From the NCBI RefSeq assembly GCF_010692725.1, contig NZ_JAAFZB010000092.1, forward strand, positions 310,001 through 374,000: 64,000 bases of DNA, read 5' to 3'. This stretch comes from Flavihumibacter soli (GTDB lineage: Bacteria; Bacteroidota; Bacteroidia; Sphingobacteriales; Sphingobacteriaceae). The translations under genes were made by a program, and so were the position numbers. Below are positions 23,981-60,784 of this stretch, one piece after another (within the stretch, counting starts at the first letter, position 1; every line of letters starts with the position of its first letter). A model generated the notes under the pieces. That model was not told the DNA's origin. It did not search any database and was given only the letters and a program-made list of their open reading frames with translations.

Positions 23981-24601
23981 ATGGTCACAGACACTCATAT
24001 GGAAGTAAATTATTCGGGACGTTTGCGCTTCGAGCCACTGGCAAAGTCTAACTGGAATAAATTCGCTGAACTATTCGGTGAAAAGGGAGCCTGCGGAAAC
24101 TGCTGGTGTATGTATTACAGATTGAATAAGGACGAGTTCAACGAAGGTAAAGTAAACGAGGGAAACAGGCAGGCTATGAAACAACTTGTCTGGTCGGGGC
24201 AACCCACCGGAATAATCGCTTTCTACGGAGACGTGCCGGTTGCCTGGTGTGCCTTTGCGCCCCGGAAAGATTTTGAAAAATTATCACGATCCCGTGTGCA
24301 CAAACCGATAGATGATCAACCGGTATGGTCTATACCCTGCACTTTCATAGCTAAAAATTTCCGGAGAAGGGGCGTGTCGGTTGAACTGCTGAAGGGCATA
24401 GTCAGCTACGCCCGTGAAAAAGGGATCAGTATTATTGAAGCCTATCCGACTATTCCCACGCAGGAGAGTCTTCCGGACTCATTTGCATGGATTGGTCTTT
24501 ATAAATCCTTTGAACGGGCAGGTTTTCGAATCGTCGACACTACTTCAAAAAACAGGCCTATGGTAAGATATTACGTGGAGGGAATCGAACAAAACTTATA
24601 A
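23981..24601 (+). CDS. GNAT-family N-acetyltransferase
   Basis: A 206-residue protein whose middle and C-terminal parts carry the GNAT acetyl-CoA site: IPCTFIAKNFRRRGVSVELL, with the R-R-x-G-V pattern in motif A, followed by a helix, SIIEAYP and the C-terminal FERAGFRIVD. The N-terminal region is Cys-rich (ACGNCWCMYYR), typical of a Bacteroidota/Actinobacteria subgroup whose substrate is unknown. ATG 23981 has a strong AGGAG ribosome site five bases upstream. The 3' end overlaps the convergent kinase gene by 6 bp. Confidence 0.85.
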   Translation: MVTDTHMEVNYSGRLRFEPLAKSNWNKFAELFGEKGACGNCWCMYYRLNKDEFNEGKVNEGNRQAMKQLVWSGQPTGIIAFYGDVPVAWCAFAPRKDFEKLSRSRVHKPIDDQPVWSIPCTFIAKNFRRRGVSVELLKGIVSYAREKGISIIEAYPTIPTQESLPDSFAWIGLYKSFERAGFRIVDTTSKNRPMVRYYVEGIEQNL

Positions 24602-25807
24602 TTGCCGGACCGGCTCAAGGTAGGGAGGAAGGGTAAAAAAGAATGTTGAACCGCTCCCTTCGGTGCTTTCCACCCAGATTTTACCTCCGTGGTCAGTGAT
24701 GATCTTGGAGGTGATATATAAACCCATACCTAAGCCTGAGTGGGTTTTAATAACGTCTTTATCCCGGTAGAATTTATTAAATATTGATTTGATACTGGAT
24801 GTAGTCATTCCAATGCCTTCATCTATGATGGCTACCTGGGCGAAACCCTCTTCGTTAAGCTTACATTGGATGTGGATTGTGCTTTTCTTCTGCGAATATT
24901 TGGCCGCATTTCCGATCAGGTTGGAAAAAACTTGTTCCATCCTCAGGGAGTCAATCATAACGGACACCGGTTCACAGTAGGATGCAGTAACCTGATGATC
25001 GGGCAGGATATTTCTAAGCAGTCCTGTCATCTCTTCAATAAAATTGTTCAGATCCAGTGCCTTTTTATCGTATTGCAGGCTTCCGTTCTCTATACGCGAA
25101 ACGTCAAGAAGTTGCTGAACCAGAGAAAGTAATTTATTGGTTTGTACGTCGATCTTTGTCAGCATTCCCCGCATATGATCATTGCAATGCTCCTTCATTC
25201 CGAGGGCTATCTGGGTATAAGCTTTAAGAACGGTGATCGGTGTTTTTATTTCATGGCTTGCAACTGAGATAAATTCTGTTTTCTTTTCGTCAATTAGTTT
25301 CGAACGCTGCAACTCTTCTTCCTGCTCCGCTGCCTTCTGGTTCAGCCTGATGTTCCGCAGTTTAATCTCCTCATACGCATTTAATGGGGCCGCTTCTTCG
25401 AAAGCCCTTTTTATATCGCTGATCCTGTATATATTCAGGTTTAAAGACCTCGGTAAACCCATCTTCATTACGATAAGATTACCTTCTGCGGTCGTTGTCA
25501 GGGTAAACTCCGGAATTAGTTTTTGGGCATAATAGAATCCTTCGTCTTCATTGGTGAACTGGACATTGCTATCGAACGAAACCGTAGCGACCAGGTTATA
25601 ACGGATCTTATTTTGCTCCAGTCCCATGGTCAGTTTCCCATTATCCGTGTGCTCAATCACTGTTCTGGCAATTTCTGATACCGCCGTCGTAAAAGTGGTT
25701 TGAGTGGAAAGCGTTAAGCCGAGCATTTCTGCCACTTTCATGGACCTTTTATTGGTAAGCACCAGGTCCATCTCATTTTCCAGCGATATGGTAATTAGCT
25801 TGATCAT
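24596..25807 (-). CDS. histidine kinase with degenerate RsbT-like N-terminus
   Basis: 403 residues. Residues about 1-125 resemble an RsbT/RsbW-type anti-sigma ATPase domain: TTFTTAVSEIARTVIEHTDNG aligns with the RsbT stretch RLITAASELVRNMLRYGNGG. The N-box Asn is replaced by Thr and the G-boxes are lost, so it is probably non-catalytic. A coiled coil (145-175) leads into HisKA with H185 (SHEIKTP), then an intact HATPase (DEGIGM, GLGMGLYI). It is the last gene of the stressosome operon; its ATG overlaps the upstream stop by four bases. It probably reads the stressosome state and passes it to an unidentified response regulator. Confidence 0.85.
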   Translation of the reverse strand: MIKLITISLENEMDLVLTNKRSMKVAEMLGLTLSTQTTFTTAVSEIARTVIEHTDNGKLTMGLEQNKIRYNLVATVSFDSNVQFTNEDEGFYYAQKLIPEFTLTTTAEGNLIVMKMGLPRSLNLNIYRISDIKRAFEEAAPLNAYEEIKLRNIRLNQKAAEQEEELQRSKLIDEKKTEFISVASHEIKTPITVLKAYTQIALGMKEHCNDHMRGMLTKIDVQTNKLLSLVQQLLDVSRIENGSLQYDKKALDLNNFIEEMTGLLRNILPDHQVTASYCEPVSVMIDSLRMEQVFSNLIGNAAKYSQKKSTIHIQCKLNEEGFAQVAIIDEGIGMTTSSIKSIFNKFYRDKDVIKTHSGLGMGLYITSKIITDHGGKIWVESTEGSGSTFFFTLPPYLEPVRQL

Positions 25808-26817
25808 ATATTTACTTTCGCTACAACAACAGACATATCATCAGTTTTTCGGGCCTGGTCCTTGTAGATCGCCGCGGCGAGTAAGGTCAGATCATATTTA
25901 TACATCTGAGGATATTTTTGCATGTCAAATCTCGTTTTCATGCCGTCGGAACAGAGCATAACCTGGTTGTAAAGGTCTGCCGGGTATTGCTGATCATTCA
26001 TTGTATTGGGCATATTATGGCCGACGATACCGTTGTAGGACATATGATTCCGAAAGCTTATCGGGCCGCTCAGTCGCATTGAAATATTACCAACTCCAGC
26101 TGCAGTCCAAATTCTTGTCGCAGGATCATAGGCCACAACGGTGATCACAGCCCCGCGGGTTTTTTTTATTGAATGATGTATAAAGCGCAGTGTCTCGGTA
26201 GGACTAAAGTCAGGAAATACCCTGAAAGCCGCTGCCGCTTCGTTGACAGCTTTATTTGCTTCCGGTCCATGTCCGAGGCCATCGGCCAGCATCAATTTAA
26301 GAACTTTATCGGTTTGTTTGGAGACAAAACCATCGCCGCTTGTTGTTTCTCCGGGTTTGAACACAACAATTGGATTGATGTTTACATTTAGTTTCTTGTT
26401 ATCTCTCTTGGTGTCATTGTAGACACGGCTCAGAACGATCGTACCCCAGCCGACCTGGGAGTAAAGCTCGAAGGTGTCAGAGAGGCGTTTCATACTTCCC
26501 AGGCCATGGCCTAAGGTTTGCGAGGTCGACATGCCATCCTGGATCATTCTCGCCGGGTTCATAATACCGGGGCCATTATCAATACAAATCAGCTCGACAT
26601 AGGGGAAGCCGCCATTGGCAAAAACACCTACCAAGATCTCGCCGTCAATACTGTATTTGTAAAGATTGGAGGTCATCTCGGCGACGATAAGATCAATTGA
26701 ATTCAGTCTTGCCTGGTCCATGCCTGCAGCAAGGGCCATCCGGTGAATTTCTTTTTTGATCAGAGAGAAATAGCTCCGGTCATTTGCCGTAAAACTGATA
26801 TGTGTTGCATCAACCAT
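25804..26817 (-). CDS. fused RsbT-like ATPase and SpoIIE/PP2C phosphatase
   Basis: 337 residues in two parts. Residues 1-135 are a serine-kinase-type HATPase with N-box IVAEMTSNLYKY (E47, N51), IDNGPGI and GHGLGSMKR. Residues 150-337 form a PP2C/SpoIIE phosphatase with metal residues in SGDGF (D162), LADGLGHG (D179) and a C-terminal KTDDMSVVV. In stressosomes RsbX dephosphorylates RsbR/RsbS, and this fusion could serve as an RsbX with its own switch-kinase domain. It overlaps the rsbT-like gene by 8 bp, indicating translational coupling. Confidence 0.88.
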   Translation of the reverse strand: MVDATHISFTANDRSYFSLIKKEIHRMALAAGMDQARLNSIDLIVAEMTSNLYKYSIDGEILVGVFANGGFPYVELICIDNGPGIMNPARMIQDGMSTSQTLGHGLGSMKRLSDTFELYSQVGWGTIVLSRVYNDTKRDNKKLNVNINPIVVFKPGETTSGDGFVSKQTDKVLKLMLADGLGHGPEANKAVNEAAAAFRVFPDFSPTETLRFIHHSIKKTRGAVITVVAYDPATRIWTAAGVGNISMRLSGPISFRNHMSYNGIVGHNMPNTMNDQQYPADLYNQVMLCSDGMKTRFDMQKYPQMYKYDLTLLAAAIYKDQARKTDDMSVVVAKVNI

Positions 26818-27247
26818 TGGCCCATTTTAATATGGTGATGGTTGTACCTTCGCCTACTTTGCTTTTAATGTCGAATTCGTTAACAAGGCGTTTAGCGCCC
26901 GGCAAACCAAGTCCCAGACTTTTGCCCGTAGAAAAGCCATCGCGCATAGCCTGTGAGATATCCGCTATGCCGGGTCCCTTATCCGAAAACGTTAGCCGTA
27001 CACCGTTGATCCGACCGCTTGACACGACCTCGATAAGGCATATACCGCCATTTCCATAGCGCAGCATGTTTCGGACCAGTTCGCTGGCAGCAGTTATCAG
27101 GCGGGTCTGATTTACGAGTCCCATCTTGATCTTAACAGCCACCTCCCTTACGCGGTTCTTCAAAAATACAGCATCCTGCTCCTTTGAAACCGGTATTGAA
27201 TCCTTATTCAGCGAAATTATCATCTTCGGGAGCTTCTTGATCTTCAT
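26810..27247 (-). CDS. rsbT: RsbT-like serine/threonine switch kinase
   Basis: 145 residues (or 137 from the ATG at 27223). A GHKL ATPase with all kinase boxes intact: ELVRN (N60), SDKGPGI (D89) and SLGLGLPGAKRLV. In Bacillus RsbT phosphorylates RsbR and RsbS, leaves the stressosome and activates a phosphatase. Here there is no RsbU or SigB gene, so its target probably lies among the fused phosphatase and kinase encoded downstream. The gene overlaps the 3' end of rsbS by 44 bp from the first start, or 20 bp from the second. Confidence 0.9.
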   Translation of the reverse strand: MKIKKLPKMIISLNKDSIPVSKEQDAVFLKNRVREVAVKIKMGLVNQTRLITAASELVRNMLRYGNGGICLIEVVSSGRINGVRLTFSDKGPGIADISQAMRDGFSTGKSLGLGLPGAKRLVNEFDIKSKVGEGTTITILKWANG

Positions 27248-27614
27248 CCGGGTCGGAAAGATCGATCATGGATTTGAGCAGGCTCATGCCTTTCTCCACA
27301 TCAAGCGCTGTATGCACACCTTTCAGCGGCAATCCAAGTTCAATGAGTGTGATGGCTACGGCAGGCTGCATGCCCACGACTACTGTTTCCGCATCGAGGA
27401 TCTTAGACATGCCGGCAATATTTCCGATAATACGACCCATAAAGGAATCGACAATAGAAACTGCTGAAATATCGATAAGTACTCCTTTTGCATTGGTTTT
27501 GTTCACGGTTTGAACGAGATCGGCTTCTAGGTTCAATGCCAGCCTGTCGTAAAGATCAACCTGTATGGTAACAAGAAGGAAGGCTCCCATCCTGAGAATA
27601 GGAATTTTATCCAT
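27204..27614 (-). CDS. rsbS: RsbS-like STAS-domain stressosome scaffold
   Basis: 136 residues forming a single STAS domain (about 4-110) and an acidic tail (PDEDQEAPEDDNF). The segment LIDISAVSIVDSFMGRII places S57 at the position phosphorylated by RsbT in Bacillus RsbS (VDSF). RsbS and RsbR co-assemble into the stressosome, a cytoplasmic signalling complex. The gene starts 9 bp after the rsbR-like stop, in the canonical R-S-T order. Confidence 0.9.
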   Translation of the reverse strand: MDKIPILRMGAFLLVTIQVDLYDRLALNLEADLVQTVNKTNAKGVLIDISAVSIVDSFMGRIIGNIAGMSKILDAETVVVGMQPAVAITLIELGLPLKGVHTALDVEKGMSLLKSMIDLSDPDEDQEAPEDDNFAE

Positions 27615-27623
27615 TGTATTCGT

Positions 27624-28487
27624 TTAAAACTTCTGAACTGTATTGATTTTTCTCACCTCTAATCTCATCGACTTAAATGCATAAGCTAATGCACTTGCTA
27701 ACGTGGCTTTGGTGATAATGTTTGATAGGTCAATGCCAAGATGTACAACGGTCTGGGCGATCTCCGGGCGAATACCGCTGATGATACATTCTGCACCCAT
27801 CAGACGAGTTGCGCTGACAGTCTTGATCAGGTGCTGAGCAACCAGTGAGTCGACAGCCGGTACCCCTGAGATATCCAGGATCGCGATACTTGAACCGGTT
27901 GCTACGATCTCCTGAAGCAGGTTTTCCATAACGACCTGTGTGCGGGCACTGTCAAGCGTACCAATGATCGGCAGCGCAAGAATACCATCCCATAAGCGGA
28001 TAACAGGGGTTGAGATCTCTGTGATCTCGTCAGTCTGGCGCAGGATCACCTCTTCACGGCCTTTAATAAAGGTTTCAAAGGTGACAACGCTCAGGTTATC
28101 CATGATACGATTGATCTTAATGCTCTCATTAAATAAGGCCTGCGGATCATTTGTTATCTCTTCCTGTAGTACTTCGAGTAAGGCTTCTTTCAATGAAAAA
28201 AGGAAATTGCCTGTCTCACGCGGGGAAAACCCTTGACGAGCTCGTGTGATCGCTATACCGCCTAAGATCTCAACAACCGGACTCCATTCGTCGGAGTTAA
28301 GATCCACTGAGTTCTCAGCAGTTAAATTACTGACTAAAGCAGTGATCAGTTCTTCTGACTGGCTCCGTAACTCTTCATTACTGATAAGATCTTCTCTCAA
28401 ACCTTCATCAGCCAGTTGGTTTCTCATCCAGAGTTCCAGGATGTTTTTTTTCTTTTTCTGTAGCAATTGTTGCGTGTTAATAGACAT
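27624..28487 (-). CDS. rsbR: RsbR-like stressosome sensor (RsbRD_N-STAS)
   Basis: 287 residues: an all-helical N-terminal domain (about 8-150) of the RsbRD_N type and a C-terminal STAS domain (about 160-275). LDISGVPAVDSLVAQHLI and SGIRPEIAQTVVHLG carry S214 and T246 at the positions of the two phosphorylation sites known in Bacillus RsbR. The first site is Ser instead of Thr. The frame is open to 28562, but the ATG at 28487 fits the family start. First gene of the operon; its upstream region has a palindrome at 28659. Confidence 0.9.
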   Translation of the reverse strand: MSINTQQLLQKKKKNILELWMRNQLADEGLREDLISNEELRSQSEELITALVSNLTAENSVDLNSDEWSPVVEILGGIAITRARQGFSPRETGNFLFSLKEALLEVLQEEITNDPQALFNESIKINRIMDNLSVVTFETFIKGREEVILRQTDEITEISTPVIRLWDGILALPIIGTLDSARTQVVMENLLQEIVATGSSIAILDISGVPAVDSLVAQHLIKTVSATRLMGAECIISGIRPEIAQTVVHLGIDLSNIITKATLASALAYAFKSMRLEVRKINTVQKF

Positions 28488-52466: not shown

Positions 52467-53133
52467 AATTCAAAATGTTTTGATGGCAGTATTTAACTGG
52501 TCCGAGGTATGGGCACTGCTCATACCTTTGTTTGTTTTATATCGCCTGAAAAGACATCAGCCGGAGTATCTGAGACCGGTAATAACCTACCTCTGGATCG
52601 CACTGGTGATCAATCTGACAGCAGACTCAATTGCAGATTTAAAGTCATCTATTCCCTGGTTCCCAAGAGGAAACCTGGTATTCTATAATATTCATTCTAT
52701 TATCCGGTTCGTATGCTTCAGTTATTTTTTCACGCTTTTACTGCCCCAGTCTTTTAAAGCATTAAAGAACACCCTGCCGGTTATATTTATTCTCTTTTTA
52801 ACTATTAACTTTAGCATAGTCGAAAACTTTCTGGAAAAAGGCCATATAAGCGGAAATCTGCATGCAGCTGAATCTTATCTCCTGCTGATCTACTGTATGA
52901 GTTATTATCTATCGGAGCTTAAAGAAGACAGGAAGTTTCAGACAAGCGGTAAGGACTTCATGGTAGTAACAGGTCTAAGCATTTATGTCGTAACAAACTT
53001 TTTCGTGTTTCTTTTCTATGTGCCTTTATTAGACGAAAATTTAAAGTTAGCAATAGATATGTGGTATGTTCATAATGTTGCCTACGTAGTACTTTGTATA
53101 TTCATAGCCAGATCATTTTATGTTAATGCTTGA
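52453..53133 (+). CDS. multi-pass membrane protein of signalling cluster
   Basis: A 226-residue protein with seven predicted helices (about 17-33, 42-60, 75-100, 106-124, 140-155, 168-190, 198-222). Such seven-helix proteins occur next to histidine kinases in Bacteroidota and may act as detached sensor modules, but I do not recognise a named family. It overlaps both neighbours by 14 bp (52453-52466 and 53120-53133), which indicates tight translational coupling with the kinase. Confidence 0.6.
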   Translation: MMDIEIQNVLMAVFNWSEVWALLIPLFVLYRLKRHQPEYLRPVITYLWIALVINLTADSIADLKSSIPWFPRGNLVFYNIHSIIRFVCFSYFFTLLLPQSFKALKNTLPVIFILFLTINFSIVENFLEKGHISGNLHAAESYLLLIYCMSYYLSELKEDRKFQTSGKDFMVVTGLSIYVVTNFFVFLFYVPLLDENLKLAIDMWYVHNVAYVVLCIFIARSFYVNA

Positions 53134-54175
53134 AGTTAATATTGAGACACGGGTGATCATCGGCATCTCAGCTATGCTCGTTTTATTCGTTAGTTTTATG
53201 ATCCTTTTTATCAGCAGCCAGCGTAAGAAACTGCAGTATCACAAAGAACTCCAGAGTTTAAACGAACAACAGCAAAAAACTCTCTCCGACCAGAATGCTT
53301 TGCTTGAGCAGCGCGTACGGGAACGAACGGCCGAACTGTCTATGCAGACGGAGGTATTGCAAACCACACTGAATGATTTAAAGGCAACCCAAATGCACCT
53401 CGTCCAGAGAGAAAAAATGGCTTCCCTTGGTGAACTTACTGCCGGTATTGCCCATGAAATTCAAAACCCACTTAATTTTGTTAACAATTTCGCGGAAGTG
53501 AGCTCCGAACTCCTTCAGGAGTTTCATAAAATGGCCTTTGATCACCTCCCGGCAGAATTTAAAGCTGAAGCCGAGGACATCTATGGCCACGTTATTGAAA
53601 ATCTTGATAAGATTAATCATCATGGCAAGCGGGCGGACTCAATCGTGAAGGGTATGCTCCAGCATTCGCGAATCAGCACCGGACAAAAGGAATTTACTGA
53701 TATAAATGAGCTTGCGGACGAATATCTGCGGCTTAGTTATCACGGTCTCAGGGCTAAAGACAAAACTTTTAATGCCGTCATGTATGAAAATCTTGGAAGG
53801 GATATCCCTTTGCTTTCTATCATTCCCCAGGACATCGGGCGGGTTCTGTTAAACCTGTACAACAATGCTTTCTATTCAGTTACCCAAAAGCACCATCTGC
53901 ATCCTGAAATTCATTTTGAGCCTTCCGTAACAGTATCAAGCGAAAAAAATGGTGAATTTGTTCTGATCAGGATTCGTGATAATGGTACTGGTATCCCGAA
54001 AAATGTTCTGGATAAAATCTATCAACCTTTCTTCACAACAAAACCCACCGGGCAGGGTACCGGACTGGGACTTTCCCTGAGCTATGATATTATAAAAGCC
54101 CATGGTGGCGAGTTAAAAGTTGAAAGCAAGGAGGGTGAGGGTGCAGAATTCACGATAAGTCTACCGATTGCATGA
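53120..54175 (+). CDS. membrane-anchored histidine kinase
   Basis: 351 residues: one membrane helix (about 11-31), a coiled coil (35-100) with RVRERTAELS, HisKA with H112 (AGIAHEIQNPLNF) and HATPase (240-350; IRDNGTGIP, GTGLGLSLSYDI). It has no sensor domain of its own, so the overlapping upstream seven-helix protein is a natural sensor partner. An alternative ATG lies at 53126. Its catalytic core is closely similar to the kinases at 54185 and 57648. Confidence 0.9.
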   Translation: MLMLEVNIETRVIIGISAMLVLFVSFMILFISSQRKKLQYHKELQSLNEQQQKTLSDQNALLEQRVRERTAELSMQTEVLQTTLNDLKATQMHLVQREKMASLGELTAGIAHEIQNPLNFVNNFAEVSSELLQEFHKMAFDHLPAEFKAEAEDIYGHVIENLDKINHHGKRADSIVKGMLQHSRISTGQKEFTDINELADEYLRLSYHGLRAKDKTFNAVMYENLGRDIPLLSIIPQDIGRVLLNLYNNAFYSVTQKHHLHPEIHFEPSVTVSSEKNGEFVLIRIRDNGTGIPKNVLDKIYQPFFTTKPTGQGTGLGLSLSYDIIKAHGGELKVESKEGEGAEFTISLPIA

Positions 54176-54184
54176 AGTCTTTGT

Positions 54185-57100
54185 ATGAAATTCAGATTTG
54201 TTAATATTTTTTATACCTTCTTTCTGCTAGTCCTCAATGCTCAGCAGGTTTTCGGTCAGGCGAAAATTTTTAACAGGGTTTATCCAGCCGAAGGAAAGAC
54301 TTTTGAGCATGTTACCGGTATTGTTCAGGACCGGCAGGGATATATGTGGCTTGTTTCAAAAAAAGGCCTTTACAAGTATGACGGATACCGGATGATCTCC
54401 TTCCGGAACAATCCCCTTAATTCCAATTCTGTTGCCAGTAATCTCCTCGAAACGATTGTTGTCGATTCACAGGGTATAGTTTGGATTGGTACTCTTGGAA
54501 ACGGACTCGACCGGCTCGATCCCGCCACGGGTAACTTCACGCATTACCGGCATGATCCTAAGCTGAAAACCAGCCTGAGCAACGATACGGTTGCATCTCT
54601 CCTTTACGATCACGAAGGCACTTTGTGGATAGGTACGCATCAGGGCCTTGATCGTTTCGATCCAGAAACCAGCCAGTTTGTGCATTACCGGCATGATCCC
54701 GGTGACCCCCAAAGTATTACTAATAATCAGGTGCGGTCTCTATACGAGGATCATCGAAATACAATCTGGGTAGGCACCGGAAGCCCATTCCTTAGCGACG
54801 GGACTAAGCCACATGAGGGAGGTTTGAACCGGATGGATAAAAAAACGGGTAAGTTTACCCGTTACCTTCACATTCCCGGTGACCGTCAAACCCTTATAAA
54901 TAATAAGGTTCGGGCTATTTTTGAAGATTCCAAAGGAAATTTCTGGGTGGGTACTGCCGGCGATGGTCTGCATATAATGGACAGATCTAAAGGAACTTTC
55001 CGCCGTTATACTTATAACCCTTCCAACCCTAAAGGTTTAAGTCGCCCGCCTATCAATCCCGCGGACATCAATTTCGCCCACATCACTTTCATTACCGAAG
55101 ATGCAACAGGAGGCATTTGGATCGGGACAGCGGACGCAGGGGTAAGCAACTATGACGTCAAAAGGAAGATCATGACGCACTATACTGCCGAGGAGGGAGG
55201 GCCGGGTGAATTCTCCGGTTCCAGCGCCTGGGCAGCCTATAACTCGCGGGATGGCGTGCTTTGGATAAGTAATATACGGGGTGATCTTTTTTATGTCGAT
55301 CCGTTTCCCCAGCAAATACCTCATTATGGATCAGTCGGTGTACCAGTGGGCAGTTTCTACCAGGAACCTGCCGGCACCCTTTGGATTGCGACAGCCAATG
55401 GTCTAGTTCAGGCAGATAACAATAATAAGGTAGTCCGGCGTTTCCAGCACGATCCGATGAAGCCGGAATCAATAAGCGGGAACGCTTTAATATCAATTAG
55501 TGTCGACCGCGAAGGAAGGATGTGGGTAGGCAGCGTTAACGGGTTGAACCTTTTTGATAAAGAAAAAGGTACCTTCAGGCGATTCGTGCATGATCCTGAA
55601 AATGAGCGGACTATAAGCCACAATTTTGTCACAGGCGTCTATCAGGACAGCAAGCGCAATATATGGCTGGGTACTATGCAAGGCATCAGCCTTTTTAATC
55701 CCAATACCGGAACCTTTAAACGATATATTCAAAATCCACGGGACACGACAAGCTTCGGATCAAACCTGGTAACCAGCATCCTGGAAGATAATGACGGTAT
55801 ATTATGGATAGGCACATGGGGACAGAACGGCGTAAACCAGTTTGACAGACAAACAAGTAAATTTCACAATTATCTGAAGGGATCTAACATCGCCAGTGTT
55901 TACCAGGATGCGGAAGGCGTACTTTGGGCAGGAGGTGATGATGGGCTTTATCGCTACGACAGAGCTTCGAAGATTTTCTCCCGGTTTATCGATCCGAGTT
56001 CTATGACCGGAATAACCGACGTAATATCCATAGTTGAAGATAACCGTCGCAACCTATGGATGGGTAGTACCAGCGGAATATTTCGGCTAAATCCCCAGAG
56101 AAATGCGACTGCCTTATATAATGAAAGATACGGGGTAGCTGAAAACGTATTGATGTACCTTTCATCGTACAAAGCAAGGAACGGTGATCTGTTTTTTGGA
56201 GATACTTCCGGGTACTTCAGATTTTTTCCAAATCAGATCACCCAGAACGCAAGGCCGCCAGAAATTTTGGTAACGGCTTTCCGGATCGCCAACCGATTGG
56301 TCGAGCCAGGGCGGGATGCACCTTTCTTAGGTCCTTTGTGGAGCACCCGGGAGCTCAGACTGTCTCACGATAAAAATGTATTTTCATTCGACGTTATTCC
56401 GATTTCTTATAGTGATCCTGAGCGGAACAGAACCCTTTATATGCTCGAAGATTACGATCAGGAATGGCGCATTGCGGATAAAAGCGGCCGGATATATTAC
56501 TTTAATATTCCGCCCGGAAATTATGTGTTCAAACTAAAAGCCGCCAATAGCCACGGAGTGTGGACACAAAAGGATATCAAAATAACAATAACTCCACCCT
56601 GGTGGCAAACGTGGTGGGCTTACCTGCTGTTCGCCGCTTTGTTTTTCTTCCTGATCTGGGCGGTTATTTATTTGCGGTCCAGAAGCCTGATCAAAGAAAA
56701 ACATGCGCTGGAGGAAAAAGTGAGAACACGCACCACCGAAATAGTCAGGCAAAAGGAAGAGATCTCTAACCAGAGGGACACTCTTATGAATGCTTTAGAC
56801 GAACTCAAGTCCACTCAGGCACAGCTGATCCAGCGGGAGAAAATGGCGTCACTTGGTGAACTAACTTCTGGTATTGCACATGAGATTCAAAACCCGCTTA
56901 ATTTTGTAAATAATTTCTCTGATGTGAACCTGGAACTTATTGAAGAGATGAGATCGGTCTTACGATCAGGCAGCCATAATAATATTATGGAGCTGGCTGA
57001 CGACATAGCACAGAATGAGCAAAAGATACATCAGCATGGCAGGCGGGCCGATGCTATTGTCAAGGGGATGCTCCAGCATTCACGGAACAGCTCAGGTAAA

Positions 57101-57592
57101 AGGGAACCGACTGATATAAATGCCCTTACAGACGAGTACCTGCGACTTGCCTACCATGGCATTCGTGCTAAGGACAAGACATTTGAAGTTGCACTGGAAA
57201 CCCATTTCGCAGAGAGCCTTCCAGCGGTTTCTGTAGTGCCCCAGGATATCGGGCGGGTCCTGATAAATCTGTTTAATAATGCATTTTATTCGGTGACGAA
57301 GAAAGCGAAGGAGCAAACTGAAGGCAGTAATTATAAACCATCTGTAATTTTAGGTACAGCGAAAGTCCATGGGCAGGTTGTCATCAGTGTCCGGGATAAC
57401 GGAACCGGAATTCCGGCCAAAGTGCTTGACAAGATCTATCAGCCTTTTTTCACAACCAAGCCTTCAGGTGAAGGAACGGGACTTGGTCTTTCTTTAAGTT
57501 ATGATCTCATTAAAGCCCATGGAGGGGAATTAATTGTGCAAAGTACCGAGGGACAAGGCGCCGAATTTACAATTACGCTGCCCGTGGGATGA
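54185..57592 (+). CDS. Reg_prop/Y_Y_Y sensor histidine kinase
   Basis: A 1135-residue kinase: signal peptide (about 1-25), periplasmic two-component-regulator propeller with about 14 blades (30-700; repeated GTHQGLDRFDPET-type and YRHDPGDPQSITNN-type segments), Y_Y_Y domain (about 725-790; NIPPGNYVFKLKAANSHGVW), a membrane helix (about 805-825), coiled coil, HisKA (MASLGELTSGIAHEIQNPLN) and HATPase (to 1135). This is the sensor half of a hybrid two-component system, but it lacks the receiver and AraC-type DNA-binding domains found in classical hybrids. Output must go to a separate regulator. Confidence 0.92.
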   Translation: MKFRFVNIFYTFFLLVLNAQQVFGQAKIFNRVYPAEGKTFEHVTGIVQDRQGYMWLVSKKGLYKYDGYRMISFRNNPLNSNSVASNLLETIVVDSQGIVWIGTLGNGLDRLDPATGNFTHYRHDPKLKTSLSNDTVASLLYDHEGTLWIGTHQGLDRFDPETSQFVHYRHDPGDPQSITNNQVRSLYEDHRNTIWVGTGSPFLSDGTKPHEGGLNRMDKKTGKFTRYLHIPGDRQTLINNKVRAIFEDSKGNFWVGTAGDGLHIMDRSKGTFRRYTYNPSNPKGLSRPPINPADINFAHITFITEDATGGIWIGTADAGVSNYDVKRKIMTHYTAEEGGPGEFSGSSAWAAYNSRDGVLWISNIRGDLFYVDPFPQQIPHYGSVGVPVGSFYQEPAGTLWIATANGLVQADNNNKVVRRFQHDPMKPESISGNALISISVDREGRMWVGSVNGLNLFDKEKGTFRRFVHDPENERTISHNFVTGVYQDSKRNIWLGTMQGISLFNPNTGTFKRYIQNPRDTTSFGSNLVTSILEDNDGILWIGTWGQNGVNQFDRQTSKFHNYLKGSNIASVYQDAEGVLWAGGDDGLYRYDRASKIFSRFIDPSSMTGITDVISIVEDNRRNLWMGSTSGIFRLNPQRNATALYNERYGVAENVLMYLSSYKARNGDLFFGDTSGYFRFFPNQITQNARPPEILVTAFRIANRLVEPGRDAPFLGPLWSTRELRLSHDKNVFSFDVIPISYSDPERNRTLYMLEDYDQEWRIADKSGRIYYFNIPPGNYVFKLKAANSHGVWTQKDIKITITPPWWQTWWAYLLFAALFFFLIWAVIYLRSRSLIKEKHALEEKVRTRTTEIVRQKEEISNQRDTLMNALDELKSTQAQLIQREKMASLGELTSGIAHEIQNPLNFVNNFSDVNLELIEEMRSVLRSGSHNNIMELADDIAQNEQKIHQHGRRADAIVKGMLQHSRNSSGKREPTDINALTDEYLRLAYHGIRAKDKTFEVALETHFAESLPAVSVVPQDIGRVLINLFNNAFYSVTKKAKEQTEGSNYKPSVILGTAKVHGQVVISVRDNGTGIPAKVLDKIYQPFFTTKPSGEGTGLGLSLSYDLIKAHGGELIVQSTEGQGAEFTITLPVG

Positions 57593-57647
57593 CCGAACGG
57601 AAGCGGGGTTTAAGTAAAAGATAAGTTAATAAAATGTCTGCCTGCTT

Positions 57648-59561
57648 ATGTTTGATTGGTTCATACTTCAGCCCGCGTCAGTAGCTGCATTATCTGAGTT
57701 TATGCTCAGCCTGGTACTAACGCTTTATATTTTCCGGATCAGAAACAGGTCATTTGATACGCAGCTATTTTTATGCTTTGTCTCGGCAAGTACCTTCTAT
57801 TATCTGGTCGCATTTTTATTTCACTCCTCCGAAGATTTCACTCAGCAGGGTGAAGTACGTTACTGGCTTCACGGTATTATCCTCGCGATATTTCAGTTAT
57901 CTATATTGCCTTTTGTTTACTACTTCAGATTCAATCCCTTCCAACGGGAAAGTATAATAGTGTTTTTATCGGCTCTCATCATTGTCGCCATTTCTATGTA
58001 TTATCATTACCTGGAGGTTCCATTTACCTATCTAATATACCAGCTAATAACTGCATGGGCTACGATTGTCTTCATCCGCAAAGCCATTGTCGCTCAGGCG
58101 CGAACAGCGGGTTCCGCGACTTCCTTGTCTCTACCGCCGGCATCTTTAAAATTCAGCATCAACGCCTTCTTTGGGGTGCTTAGAGAACCTGCAAACCGGG
58201 ATTCGAAAGCGTTTCTTGCTTTTGCATGGTGGCAGGTGCTGGTGTTTATTATCTGGATCAATGTCAACCTGATGGTTCTTGGATTCATTCCCCGGCAGGT
58301 CTGGAATGTTTTGCATAACACTTTGATCCTGGTTTCAATCGTTTGGCTCGTAACTATATATATAAATTATGCCTGGGAACCCACCACCTTTGTTGTGAAA
58401 CTTGTTGGGCTATCGTTATGCTCAATACTACTATTATTAGGTGTAATGGGCTTTTTATTACATCCCGGCGCAAGTGAGAATGCCGGCTATATACTTAGCA
58501 CCCTTTCAATTCTGATCATCGTATCAACCCTGGTGATCGTACTCATATTTCCTCTTTTCTTTAAAAAGAATCTTTTGCAGCCATTAGATCAGGTGCTTAA
58601 TGGTGTCCAGCAGGTAAACGCCGGTAATTTGGATGTTAAAGTGCCAGTTGAAGTGAATGATGAAATCGGACAGCTGGCAGCTCATTTTAACGTCATGACA
58701 ACCTCATTACGACGTTATTCTGAAGAGATGGAAAATCTGGTTTCGGAACGAACAGCTGAACTGCTCCAATCAATTGAAAATTTAAAAAAAACGCAGGCGC
58801 AGCTTATCCAGGCCGAAAAGATGGCATCGCTGGGAGAATTAACTGCAGGAATAGCCCACGAAATACAAAACCCCTTAAATTTTGTCAACAATTTCTCCGA
58901 GGTGAGTACGGAAATGCTGGAAGAGCTGGAGAAGGAACAAATCTCAGGTAATGAACAGGAGGTAAGTTCTCTGGTCGCGGAAATAAAGCAAAATTTGGAA
59001 AAGGTCATTTATCATGGAAAGCGGGCCGATGCAATAGTGAAAGGAATGTTGCTGCATTCCAGAAGCAGTGCCGGGAAGAAAGAACCGACGGATATTAACG
59101 CATTAGCTGATGAATACCTTCGCTTATCCTATCACGGATTCAGAGCGAAGGATAAGTCTTTCAACGTGGTCCTGCAAACCTGCTTTGATCCCGTAATTAA
59201 AACTATTAATATCATTCCCCAGGATATTGCACGGGTGATGCTTAACTTGTTTACCAATGCATTTTTTGCGGTCGCAGAAAGGGCAAGAAACGCATCAGAT
59301 AGCTATGAACCAGCTGTTATTGTGACAACGATAAGGAGAGATGATACAATTGAAATTCATATAAGGGACAATGGTGATGGAATTCCTCAAAAGATACTGG
59401 ATAAGATATTTCAGCCATTCTTTACCACCAAACCAACGGGCGAAGGAACGGGCCTTGGCCTGTCATTGAGTTATGACATCATCAAGGCCCATGGTGGAGA
59501 AATCACTGTAGAAACACGGGAAGGTGATTTCGCGGAATTTATAATGAAACTTCCCGTCTAA
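57648..59561 (+). CDS. histidine kinase with polytopic membrane sensor and HAMP
   Basis: 637 residues: about six or seven N-terminal helices (10-160 and 190-250), a further pair around 255-310, a HAMP-like segment (about 315-365; DQVLNGVQQVNAGNLDVKVP), HisKA (MASLGELTAGIAHEIQNPLNF) and HATPase ending EFIMKLPV. The kinase core closely resembles the two preceding kinases. The N-terminus has the feel of a 7TM-type sensor, but no family was recognised. The ATG at 57648 lies 55 bp after the previous stop. Confidence 0.88.
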   Translation: MFDWFILQPASVAALSEFMLSLVLTLYIFRIRNRSFDTQLFLCFVSASTFYYLVAFLFHSSEDFTQQGEVRYWLHGIILAIFQLSILPFVYYFRFNPFQRESIIVFLSALIIVAISMYYHYLEVPFTYLIYQLITAWATIVFIRKAIVAQARTAGSATSLSLPPASLKFSINAFFGVLREPANRDSKAFLAFAWWQVLVFIIWINVNLMVLGFIPRQVWNVLHNTLILVSIVWLVTIYINYAWEPTTFVVKLVGLSLCSILLLLGVMGFLLHPGASENAGYILSTLSILIIVSTLVIVLIFPLFFKKNLLQPLDQVLNGVQQVNAGNLDVKVPVEVNDEIGQLAAHFNVMTTSLRRYSEEMENLVSERTAELLQSIENLKKTQAQLIQAEKMASLGELTAGIAHEIQNPLNFVNNFSEVSTEMLEELEKEQISGNEQEVSSLVAEIKQNLEKVIYHGKRADAIVKGMLLHSRSSAGKKEPTDINALADEYLRLSYHGFRAKDKSFNVVLQTCFDPVIKTINIIPQDIARVMLNLFTNAFFAVAERARNASDSYEPAVIVTTIRRDDTIEIHIRDNGDGIPQKILDKIFQPFFTTKPTGEGTGLGLSLSYDIIKAHGGEITVETREGDFAEFIMKLPV

Positions 59562-59746
59562 AACATGGGATGAAAAAGTTTATCTGTAGTTAATTTCTTG
59601 ATTGTCTGCTGTATATAACGTAATTTATGCAATAAATGCTGAAATTTAGTTGGCGAAAACCGCTAAAGGAGCAGCAATGTCAGTCCAGCACATGTAAGAC
59701 ATACGGATTTGAACCGAGCTTTCTGAAATATTAAATTTGATTGATC

Positions 59747-60784
59747 ATGTTTAAGATATTAGTAGCTGATGATGAGAAGGACCTTGAAGGTCTGATTAAA
59801 CAGAAATTTCGCCGTCAAATCAGGGAAAATAAATACGAGTTTTATTTCGCCCTCAACGGAATTGAAGCTCTGAACATGTTAAATGAACATCCAGAAATTT
59901 CGATCCTCCTGAGTGATATCAACATGCCCGAACTGGATGGTCTCACCCTTCTTAGTAAACTCAACGAGTCCAGTTCGCTGGTGAAGACCGTAATGGTGTC
60001 GGCATATGGCGACATGGAGAATATCCGCACCGCAATGAACCGGGGGGCCTTTGATTTCGTCGTAAAGCCAATCAATTTTGTAGACCTGGAGCTAACCATT
60101 GAAAAAACTATTCAGCAGGTCTTGCAGGTCAAAAAGACCCTCCAAGCTATTAAGGAAAATAACATCCTCCGGATGTATGTGGACGAAACGGTATTAAACT
60201 TTATGAGTCATCAGAACTCAGAAAGCACCTTGCTTGTAAATGAAACAGTCCAGGCTACAATTGTATTCTTTGATATTTGCAGTTTTACGTCATTTGCTGA
60301 AAAAGAGTCAGCCGATAAGGTCGTAAAACTGTTAAACCGCTACTTTGATGTCATGGTCAAAGAGATAATTTCCCAGGGCGGTCACGTCGATAAGTTTATG
60401 GGTGATGCGATCATGGCCGTTTTCAGAGGCGATTATCATCTGGATCGGGCAATTGAAGCAAGCCTGGCCGTACGAAAGGAACTATTGGATCTGCCGAGCA
60501 TATCGGACAATCATTTTAAGCCGAAAGTTGCTATCGGTTTAAAAAGTGGCGAAGTTATCTCAGGAAATATAGGTTCGGCTAACCTGCGGCGTCTGGATTA
60601 TACAGTCATCGGTGACGTTGTTAATACTGCTCAGCGTCTGCAGTCAAAATCTAAGGCTAGTCAGATCCTGATCGATCACCATGATTATGAGCAGATAAAG
60701 CAATCGTTTAACTGCGAGGTTATAGGGGAAATGACATTTAAAAATAAGAAGAACCCTATCCTTGTTTATGAAGTTGTCAGCTGA
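59747..60784 (+). CDS. response regulator with class III adenylyl cyclase
   Basis: 345 residues (the TTG at 59741 is not needed). Receiver domain 1-120: acidic pocket D8/D9, phospho-acceptor D57 (LLSDINMPELDG), K107. Class III cyclase 165-340: metal Asp D176 (FFDICSFT) and D220 (VDKFMGDAIM), substrate Lys K216, T286 in DYTVIGD, transition-state N293 and R297. Lys plus Thr is the usual class IIIb adenylyl-cyclase pair. Presumably phosphorylated by one or more of the upstream kinases to control cAMP. The pyrimidine-cyclase substitutions are not present. No PilZ-like or CRP gene is in the window. Confidence 0.92.
   Translation: MFKILVADDEKDLEGLIKQKFRRQIRENKYEFYFALNGIEALNMLNEHPEISILLSDINMPELDGLTLLSKLNESSSLVKTVMVSAYGDMENIRTAMNRGAFDFVVKPINFVDLELTIEKTIQQVLQVKKTLQAIKENNILRMYVDETVLNFMSHQNSESTLLVNETVQATIVFFDICSFTSFAEKESADKVVKLLNRYFDVMVKEIISQGGHVDKFMGDAIMAVFRGDYHLDRAIEASLAVRKELLDLPSISDNHFKPKVAIGLKSGEVISGNIGSANLRRLDYTVIGDVVNTAQRLQSKSKASQILIDHHDYEQIKQSFNCEVIGEMTFKNKKNPILVYEVVS

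Follow-up and report, generated by a model that had tools for sequence, protein, structure and literature searches.

A conserved stressosome operon of Bacteroidota whose histidine kinase carries an apparently degenerate RsbT as its input domain

A five-gene stressosome operon is found on the minus strand of a 64-kb stretch of the Flavihumibacter soli genome (64,000 nucleotides of contig NZ_JAAFZB010000092.1, referred to as a whole as the window). It encodes RsbR, RsbS, RsbT, a fusion of an RsbT-like kinase domain with a PP2C phosphatase, and a HisKA histidine kinase (HK), in this order (Table 1). RsbR and RsbS are separated by a gap of 9 bp, RsbS overlaps RsbT, RsbT overlaps the fusion by 8 bp and the fusion overlaps the HK by 4 bp. 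Both the coordinates and the Pfam matches agree with a first-pass annotation of the sequence, which had described five genes that overlap or lie within 9 bp of each other. A convergent GNAT gene bounds the operon 3' of the HK, and no response regulator accompanies the HK in the operon here. The lack of a sigma factor and of RsbU, also stated in that annotation, was borne out: neither a sigma-factor gene nor rsbU is present in the operon, no linkage of rsbU, rsbV, rsbW or sigB to rsbRST was observed, and RsbU_N was not found in the window's genome. The RsbR reading frame is open to 28562, and the start at 28487, as in the earlier annotation, gives a protein of 287 aa. The start of RsbT, judged from its relatives, is likely to be that given in the table.

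Table 1. Features of the operon, and unlinked proteins of the same genome that resemble partner-switching components
Feature	Coordinates	Strand	Evidence
RsbR: RsbRD_N sensor domain and STAS	27624..28487	-	Pfam RsbRD_N 1.4e-28, STAS 1.3e-14
RsbS: single STAS domain	27204..27614	-	Pfam STAS 3e-6
RsbT: free switch kinase, N, G1 and G2 boxes intact	26810..27223 (ORF open to 27247)	-	Pfam HATPase_c 1.1e-12
Fusion, whole ORF	25804-26817	-	
Fusion, N-terminal RsbT-like kinase domain, ATP boxes intact	26404..26817	-	HATPase_c_2 1.6e-6; profile match to RsbT 99.5%
Fusion, C-terminal RsbX-type PP2C phosphatase	25804..26403	-	SpoIIE 6.4e-6; PDB 3zt9 1.4e-16; RsbX 3w40 5.2e-6
HK, whole ORF	24596-25807	-	
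HK residues 1-120: apparently degenerate RsbT domain (pseudo-RsbT), without ATP lid	25448..25807	-	Profiles, AlphaFold model, conservation
HK residues 144-203: predicted helix that runs unbroken from the pseudo-RsbT side into the phospho-His helix	25199..25378	-	AlphaFold model of whole HK
HK residues 176-403: HisKA (His185) and HATPase_c core, soluble, canonical	24596..25282	-	Pfam HisKA 4.1e-14, HATPase_c 3.2e-27
Unlinked RsbW-like HATPase_c_2 protein (144 aa)	G000:C95:476894-477256		
Unlinked RsbV-like STAS protein (125 aa)	G000:C88:30601-30906		
Unlinked SpoIIE-type PP2C (414 aa)	G000:C96:931066-931629		

At the level of genes alone, the components of a stressosome are present: RsbR has a sensor and a STAS domain with two predicted phosphosites, RsbS a STAS domain with a predicted phospho-serine, and RsbT its intact ATP boxes. 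The single-domain PP2C phosphatase RsbX of RsbRSTX modules is absent, the PP2C being fused here to the RsbT-like kinase domain. The fifth protein has the phospho-histidine in HisKA and the HATPase_c boxes of a HisKA histidine kinase, and no RsbU_N was found on it with Pfam.

The first 167 residues of the HK, used as query, were found in 38 of 201 genomes of the family, including the window's own, and 39 loci were fetched from the other 37. In named genomes, 335 related stretches were found by a scan, and the best 80 of them are called here the named loci; the two sets overlap (L089 of the second is G021 of the first) and are therefore not independent. The order RsbR, RsbS, RsbT, fusion, HK is found in 39/39 family loci, with RsbT split over two open reading frames (ORFs) in L069, and all five genes are present in 77/80 named loci, whose genera include Mucilaginibacter, Pedobacter, Olivibacter, Chitinophaga, Flavobacterium, Spirosoma and Larkinella. 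Of the other three named loci, L105 and L111 are truncated where their contigs stop; L146 has the HK without the rest. As the gene order is the same in the 39 family loci and in 77/80 named loci, the operon is not a chance arrangement. L069 and L137 represent the second module copy of one metagenome-assembled genome (MAG), Sphingobacteriaceae bin.73, in which RsbT consists of two overlapping ORFs owing to decay or to an assembly error. Two module copies were seen in several genomes (L079/L083, L093/L104 and L094/L101; G012 and G031).

Conservation was counted over the named loci and the window. Of 77 RsbR relatives in the named loci, 64 measure 280-292 aa. The phosphosites predicted in the first-pass annotation, S57 of RsbS and S214 and T246 of RsbR (numbered from the 28487 start), are at the right places and invariant, in 79/79 and 78/78 proteins, respectively. 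The N, G1 and G2 box residues checked in the free RsbT are kept in 78-79 of 79. Both halves of the fusion are retained in all 79 fusions, together with the box residues of the kinase half (79/79) and the metal-site aspartates of the PP2C half (79/79). The catalytic core of the HK is equally constant, His185 and the ATP-box residues being kept in 81/81.

Nothing in Pfam matches residues 1-150 of the window HK. A first hint to the nature of this region was a BLAST match with RsbT as query (E 0.028). Profile-profile comparison of 39 HK N-termini with 28 free RsbT proteins yielded a match of 92% (P 6e-7), and one of only 6% with the kinase domain of the fusion. In the two directions, the window HK was found by an RsbT profile (E 1.2e-9) and the window RsbT by a profile of the HK N-terminus (E 9.4e-5); the former profile has 15 rows, one of which is an RsbT-HK (from genome G384, see below), and the 92% comparison involved free RsbT only. 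The AlphaFold model of the domain (pLDDT 94.4, pTM 0.88) gave 17 Foldseek matches at E <= 0.001, all of them to RsbW, SpoIIAB or sigF anti-sigma factors. By VIA-align it superposes on RsbW with a Z-score of 14.3 (1.7 Å over 103 residues), with SiaB (11.2) and Leptospira LvrC (10.2) as intermediates and the ATPase domains of histidine kinases at 7.9 or below.

Switch kinases of this kind bind ATP through the N, G1 and G2 boxes. The N-box asparagine is present in 5 of 81 HK N-termini, all of the longer 542-555 aa type, and the G1 and G2 patterns occur together in 0/78; stray ATP-box patterns lie at non-equivalent places in L090, L111 and L113, and near the G1 place, without G2, in L102. Asp14, Ala42 and Arg48 are kept in 81/81 and Glu45 in 80/81, and these residues (Asp14, Ala42, Glu45 and Arg48) align with Asp25, Ala53, Glu56 and Arg59 of RsbT. 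Residues 1-120 of the HK therefore show the fold and the homology of a switch kinase without its N, G1 and G2 boxes and, judged from sequence, this domain is apparently a degenerate, ATP-dead relative of RsbT (pseudo-RsbT) and not an active switch kinase. A degenerate RsbT as the input domain of an HK is the unusual part of the module. It had been missed by the first-pass annotation, whose overall reading as a stressosome with a two-component kinase stands. In the literature searched, most matches of which were seen as list entries and which did not extend to a 2005 review of output modules, no description of an RsbT-type domain on a histidine kinase was recognised.

The domain might instead sense a ligand in the usual way, on a scaffold of GHKL-like type, with the HK merely co-transcribed with the stressosome genes. 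This explanation would fit L146 (4974-7079), from a Chitinophagaceae MAG, in which a pseudo-RsbT-PAS histidine kinase is followed 9 bp downstream by a response regulator and no RsbR, RsbS or RsbT was found in the 5 kb upstream of the HK. However, the similarity of the HK domain is strongest to its partner protein RsbT, and of the 80 loci 77 keep the five genes, while a contig end truncates two of the remaining three, so that we regard this explanation as improbable.

In the AlphaFold model of the full-length HK (pLDDT 86, pTM 0.52), the helix at residues 144-203 joins the N-terminal domain to the phospho-His helix; the domain orientation in this model is unreliable, because of the pTM of 0.52. 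Longer HKs (at least 542 aa) are found in 9 of the 80 named loci, with a PAS domain between the two parts in all four that were scanned.

A wider sample of 395 genomes of the phylum contained a strong RsbT match (E <= 4.6e-39) in 15, the next match being at 3e-18. The RsbT-PP2C fusion is present in 8 of these 15 genomes, and the same 8/8 bear an RsbT-type domain on an adjacent or nearby HK. In seven of them the domain is degenerate and RsbT, fusion and HK are contiguous, and in G384 the domain is intact. The gene order in G384 is RsbR, RsbS, RsbT and fusion, a hybrid kinase with two receiver (REC) domains, an RsbT-HisKA kinase in which the N, G1 and G2 boxes are present, and a single-domain response regulator. 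This intact RsbT-HK is rare: of the 79 genomes of its family, only G384 has it. At the same locus (L290, 6187-12822), the regulator that follows the RsbT-HK is itself followed by a REC-REC protein and another hybrid kinase. In the other 7 of the 15 genomes, the neighbour of RsbT or of its phosphatase is a kinase that combines PAS and HisKA_3 with an RsbU_N match at its N-terminus (7/7; above the Pfam cut-off in six). A REC protein of 212-222 aa comes after this kinase in 7/7, and a separate PP2C adjoins RsbT in five of the seven. Two of these loci (L296 and L297), in which RsbT and the RsbU_N kinase were found and RsbR, RsbS and PP2C were not found with the models used, are counted for RsbU_N only. 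The contrast between fusion and non-fusion genomes in bearing an RsbT-type domain on the kinase (8/8 vs 0/7) has a P of 1.6e-4 assuming independence, although the genomes are not independent. There are thus two couplings in the phylum, one with RsbT's receptor (RsbU_N) on the kinase and the other with RsbT itself on the kinase.

The main rival to the docking model set out below is that released RsbT activates the HK directly, pairing with pseudo-RsbT or with the helical linker, while the STAS core merely sequesters RsbT. This is the course taken in B. subtilis, where RsbT, once released, binds RsbU (PMC12143880), and it would agree with the continuous helical linker in the HK model and with the presence of RsbU_N, the receptor of RsbT, on the HK in 7/7 of the other RsbT loci. 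The window HK, however, bears the fold of RsbT and not its receptor, RsbU_N being absent from the HK and not found in the genome, which leaves direct activation doubtful in our judgement. It is also conceivable, with a low probability, that RsbT touches the HK only transiently and controls it by phosphorylating it on Ser/Thr, as has been proposed for D1 of V. vulnificus and suggested for downstream kinases without RsbU_N (PMC9237108). Such a mechanism would leave unexplained why an RsbT-fold domain, instead of a STAS substrate domain, is found on the HK.

The first-pass annotation had rightly suggested a search for a response regulator. A single-domain REC ORF lies directly after the HK on the same strand (start at -160 to +300 bp of the HK end) in 17/80 named loci, against 0.41 expected from the density elsewhere in the same loci, and four of these 17 ORFs overlap the HK by 4 bp. 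The corresponding P of 5e-22 treats related loci as independent and is too small, the excess itself being the result. By eye the 17 ORFs fall into at least two types, which suggests repeated recruitment of regulators. Two unlinked proteins of the window's genome share 57 and 59% identity with the operon-borne regulator of L080, all further matches in that genome being at 35% or below; the genomic contexts of the two are uninformative. We infer from sequence that they are candidates, and candidates only, for the phosphate acceptor here, because this regulator family is common in genomes without the module: it is found in 37/38 module genomes vs 110/163 other genomes of the family (Fisher 6e-5) and, within the window's genus, in 5/5 vs 2/15 (Fisher 0.0014). 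One module genome, G099, has no such regulator at E <= 1e-18. This co-occurrence is not used as strong evidence, as the genomes are related, those without the module include many small ones and regulators of this family are found widely. Elsewhere in the window, a second signalling cluster on the plus strand (53120-60784) encodes three histidine kinases of 351, 1135 and 637 aa, the 1135-aa kinase with two-component propeller repeats, and then a protein with a REC and an adenylate/guanylate cyclase domain (59741-60784).

The stressosome could also act through partner-switching proteins encoded elsewhere in the genome, the HK being a side branch. The genome does contain a SpoIIE-type PP2C, an HATPase_c_2 protein and a STAS protein, which may provide a second output. 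As the principal route this is improbable, since the three proteins sit on other contigs, the search of the genome found no RsbU_N and 77/80 named loci have the HK within the operon.

RsbT-type folds bind STAS domains, as in the pairs RsbT-RsbS, RsbW-RsbV and SpoIIAB-SpoIIAA, two of which are PDB complexes by title. As three proteins of the operon bear the RsbT fold and the core bears STAS domains, the partners of such folds, we propose, as an economical model, a stressosome of Bacteroidota with three uses of the RsbT fold, in which the HK would be docked onto the core of RsbR and RsbS by its pseudo-RsbT domain, a model that we hold to be somewhat on the probable side. The free RsbT is the active switch kinase, the RsbX-type PP2C phosphatase is attached to another RsbT-like domain with intact boxes, and the third, apparently ATP-dead RsbT is the sole input domain of the soluble HisKA kinase. 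On the STAS core of RsbR and RsbS, RsbT and, via pseudo-RsbT, the HK would be held at STAS sites of one class, where the two may compete. When RsbR senses stress, RsbT would phosphorylate S57 of RsbS and S214 and T246 of RsbR, which would alter the docking of the HK, the sign of this switch being conjectural, and the change would travel along helix 144-203 to His185. The phosphate would then pass from the HK to a single-domain response regulator, operon-borne in some relatives and presumably unlinked here, and the phosphatase fusion, reaching the core by its own RsbT-like domain, would reset the system. The HK would thus be the output instead of SigB, as the first-pass annotation had it.

The docking model can be taken further, in a form that we put forward tentatively and consider rather unlikely to hold in full. 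The core would offer one docking surface to three modules with the RsbT fold, namely the kinase, the phosphatase and the dead copy with its histidine kinase. As a multivalent cage it would cluster HKs in the manner of a chemoreceptor array and tune their activity through competition of live and dead copies of one switch kinase. In the course of evolution, the dead-RsbT kinase would have come to stand where other members of the phylum have an RsbU_N kinase, a receptor of RsbT giving way to a rival of RsbT.

Several points weigh against the docking model. STAS docking is argued by analogy. The HK profile gave one chance-level match (0.55) against PDB sequences, and Pfam HATPase_c_2 matches just 2/78 HK members at E <= 0.01, so that the assignment of the HK domain rests on the RsbT profile comparison and the fold. 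Of three groupings of pseudo-RsbT, with the intact RsbT-HK of G384 (p 0.43), with this and the free RsbT of the same loci (p 0.41) and with the domain of the fusion (p 0.16), none is rejected by the approximately unbiased (AU) test, so that descent from the G384 type is one of several placements compatible with the trees. To these are added the solitary HK of L146, the 63/80 named loci without a single-domain regulator directly after the HK, and the frequency of the regulator family in genomes that lack the module.

To the question of how stressosomes without SigB signal to histidine kinases, this module offers a concrete and testable answer for many soil and water Bacteroidota (the 335 stretches come from one scan): a kinase bearing an apparently dead copy of the switch kinase. 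If the model is true, a docking domain arose from an enzyme through duplication and decay; the module also points to single-domain response regulators as the next signalling step.

The gene content agrees with the class assigned by the first-pass annotation, a stressosome module with a two-component kinase, and the coupling of a stressosome to an HK has been published before for other bacteria (PMC9237108). That work describes rsbRSTX modules in many phyla, including Bacteroidetes, in which RsbX has a single domain and signalling proteins are encoded downstream. Some of these proteins have RsbU_N, while for most, without it, the link to the stressosome is unknown; in V. vulnificus, no contact was detected between RsbT and D1 (PMC9237108). 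The V. vulnificus RsbRSTX-D1-D2 operon is similar to the present one in joining RsbR, RsbS, RsbT and an RsbX-type phosphatase, without SigB, to two-component proteins that follow. In V. vulnificus and its relatives, however, RsbX is a single-domain PP2C and the RsbR proteins surveyed have globin sensors (PMC9237108), whereas in the present operon an RsbT-like kinase is fused to RsbX, the sensor of RsbR is RsbRD_N and the HK bears a degenerate RsbT.

Kinases with RsbU_N occur in stressosome operons (PMC9237108, PMC12143880), and those of the phylum sample (L291-L297) resemble the present module in that an HK neighbours the stressosome genes, with a receiver protein beside it as in some relatives of the window operon; they differ in having RsbU_N, in 7/7 of the sample, and a HisKA_3 core, where the window HK has a degenerate RsbT and a HisKA core. 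The RsbRST-RsbUVW-SigB-RsbX operon of B. subtilis has the same RsbRST core and RsbX-type feedback phosphatase (PMC9237108), but RsbU, RsbV, RsbW and SigB are not linked here and the HK takes the downstream place. The stressosome of Moorella thermoacetica, with its diguanylate cyclase, is likewise a core re-used for a non-sigma output, with another output enzyme and with RsbU_N as the coupling domain (cited in PMC4976288 and PMC12143880). Finally, RsbW and SpoIIAB (PDB 6m36 and 1th8) share the fold of HK residues 1-121, but the HK domain, which is joined to a HisKA kinase, is without the G1 and G2 boxes and the ATP lid.

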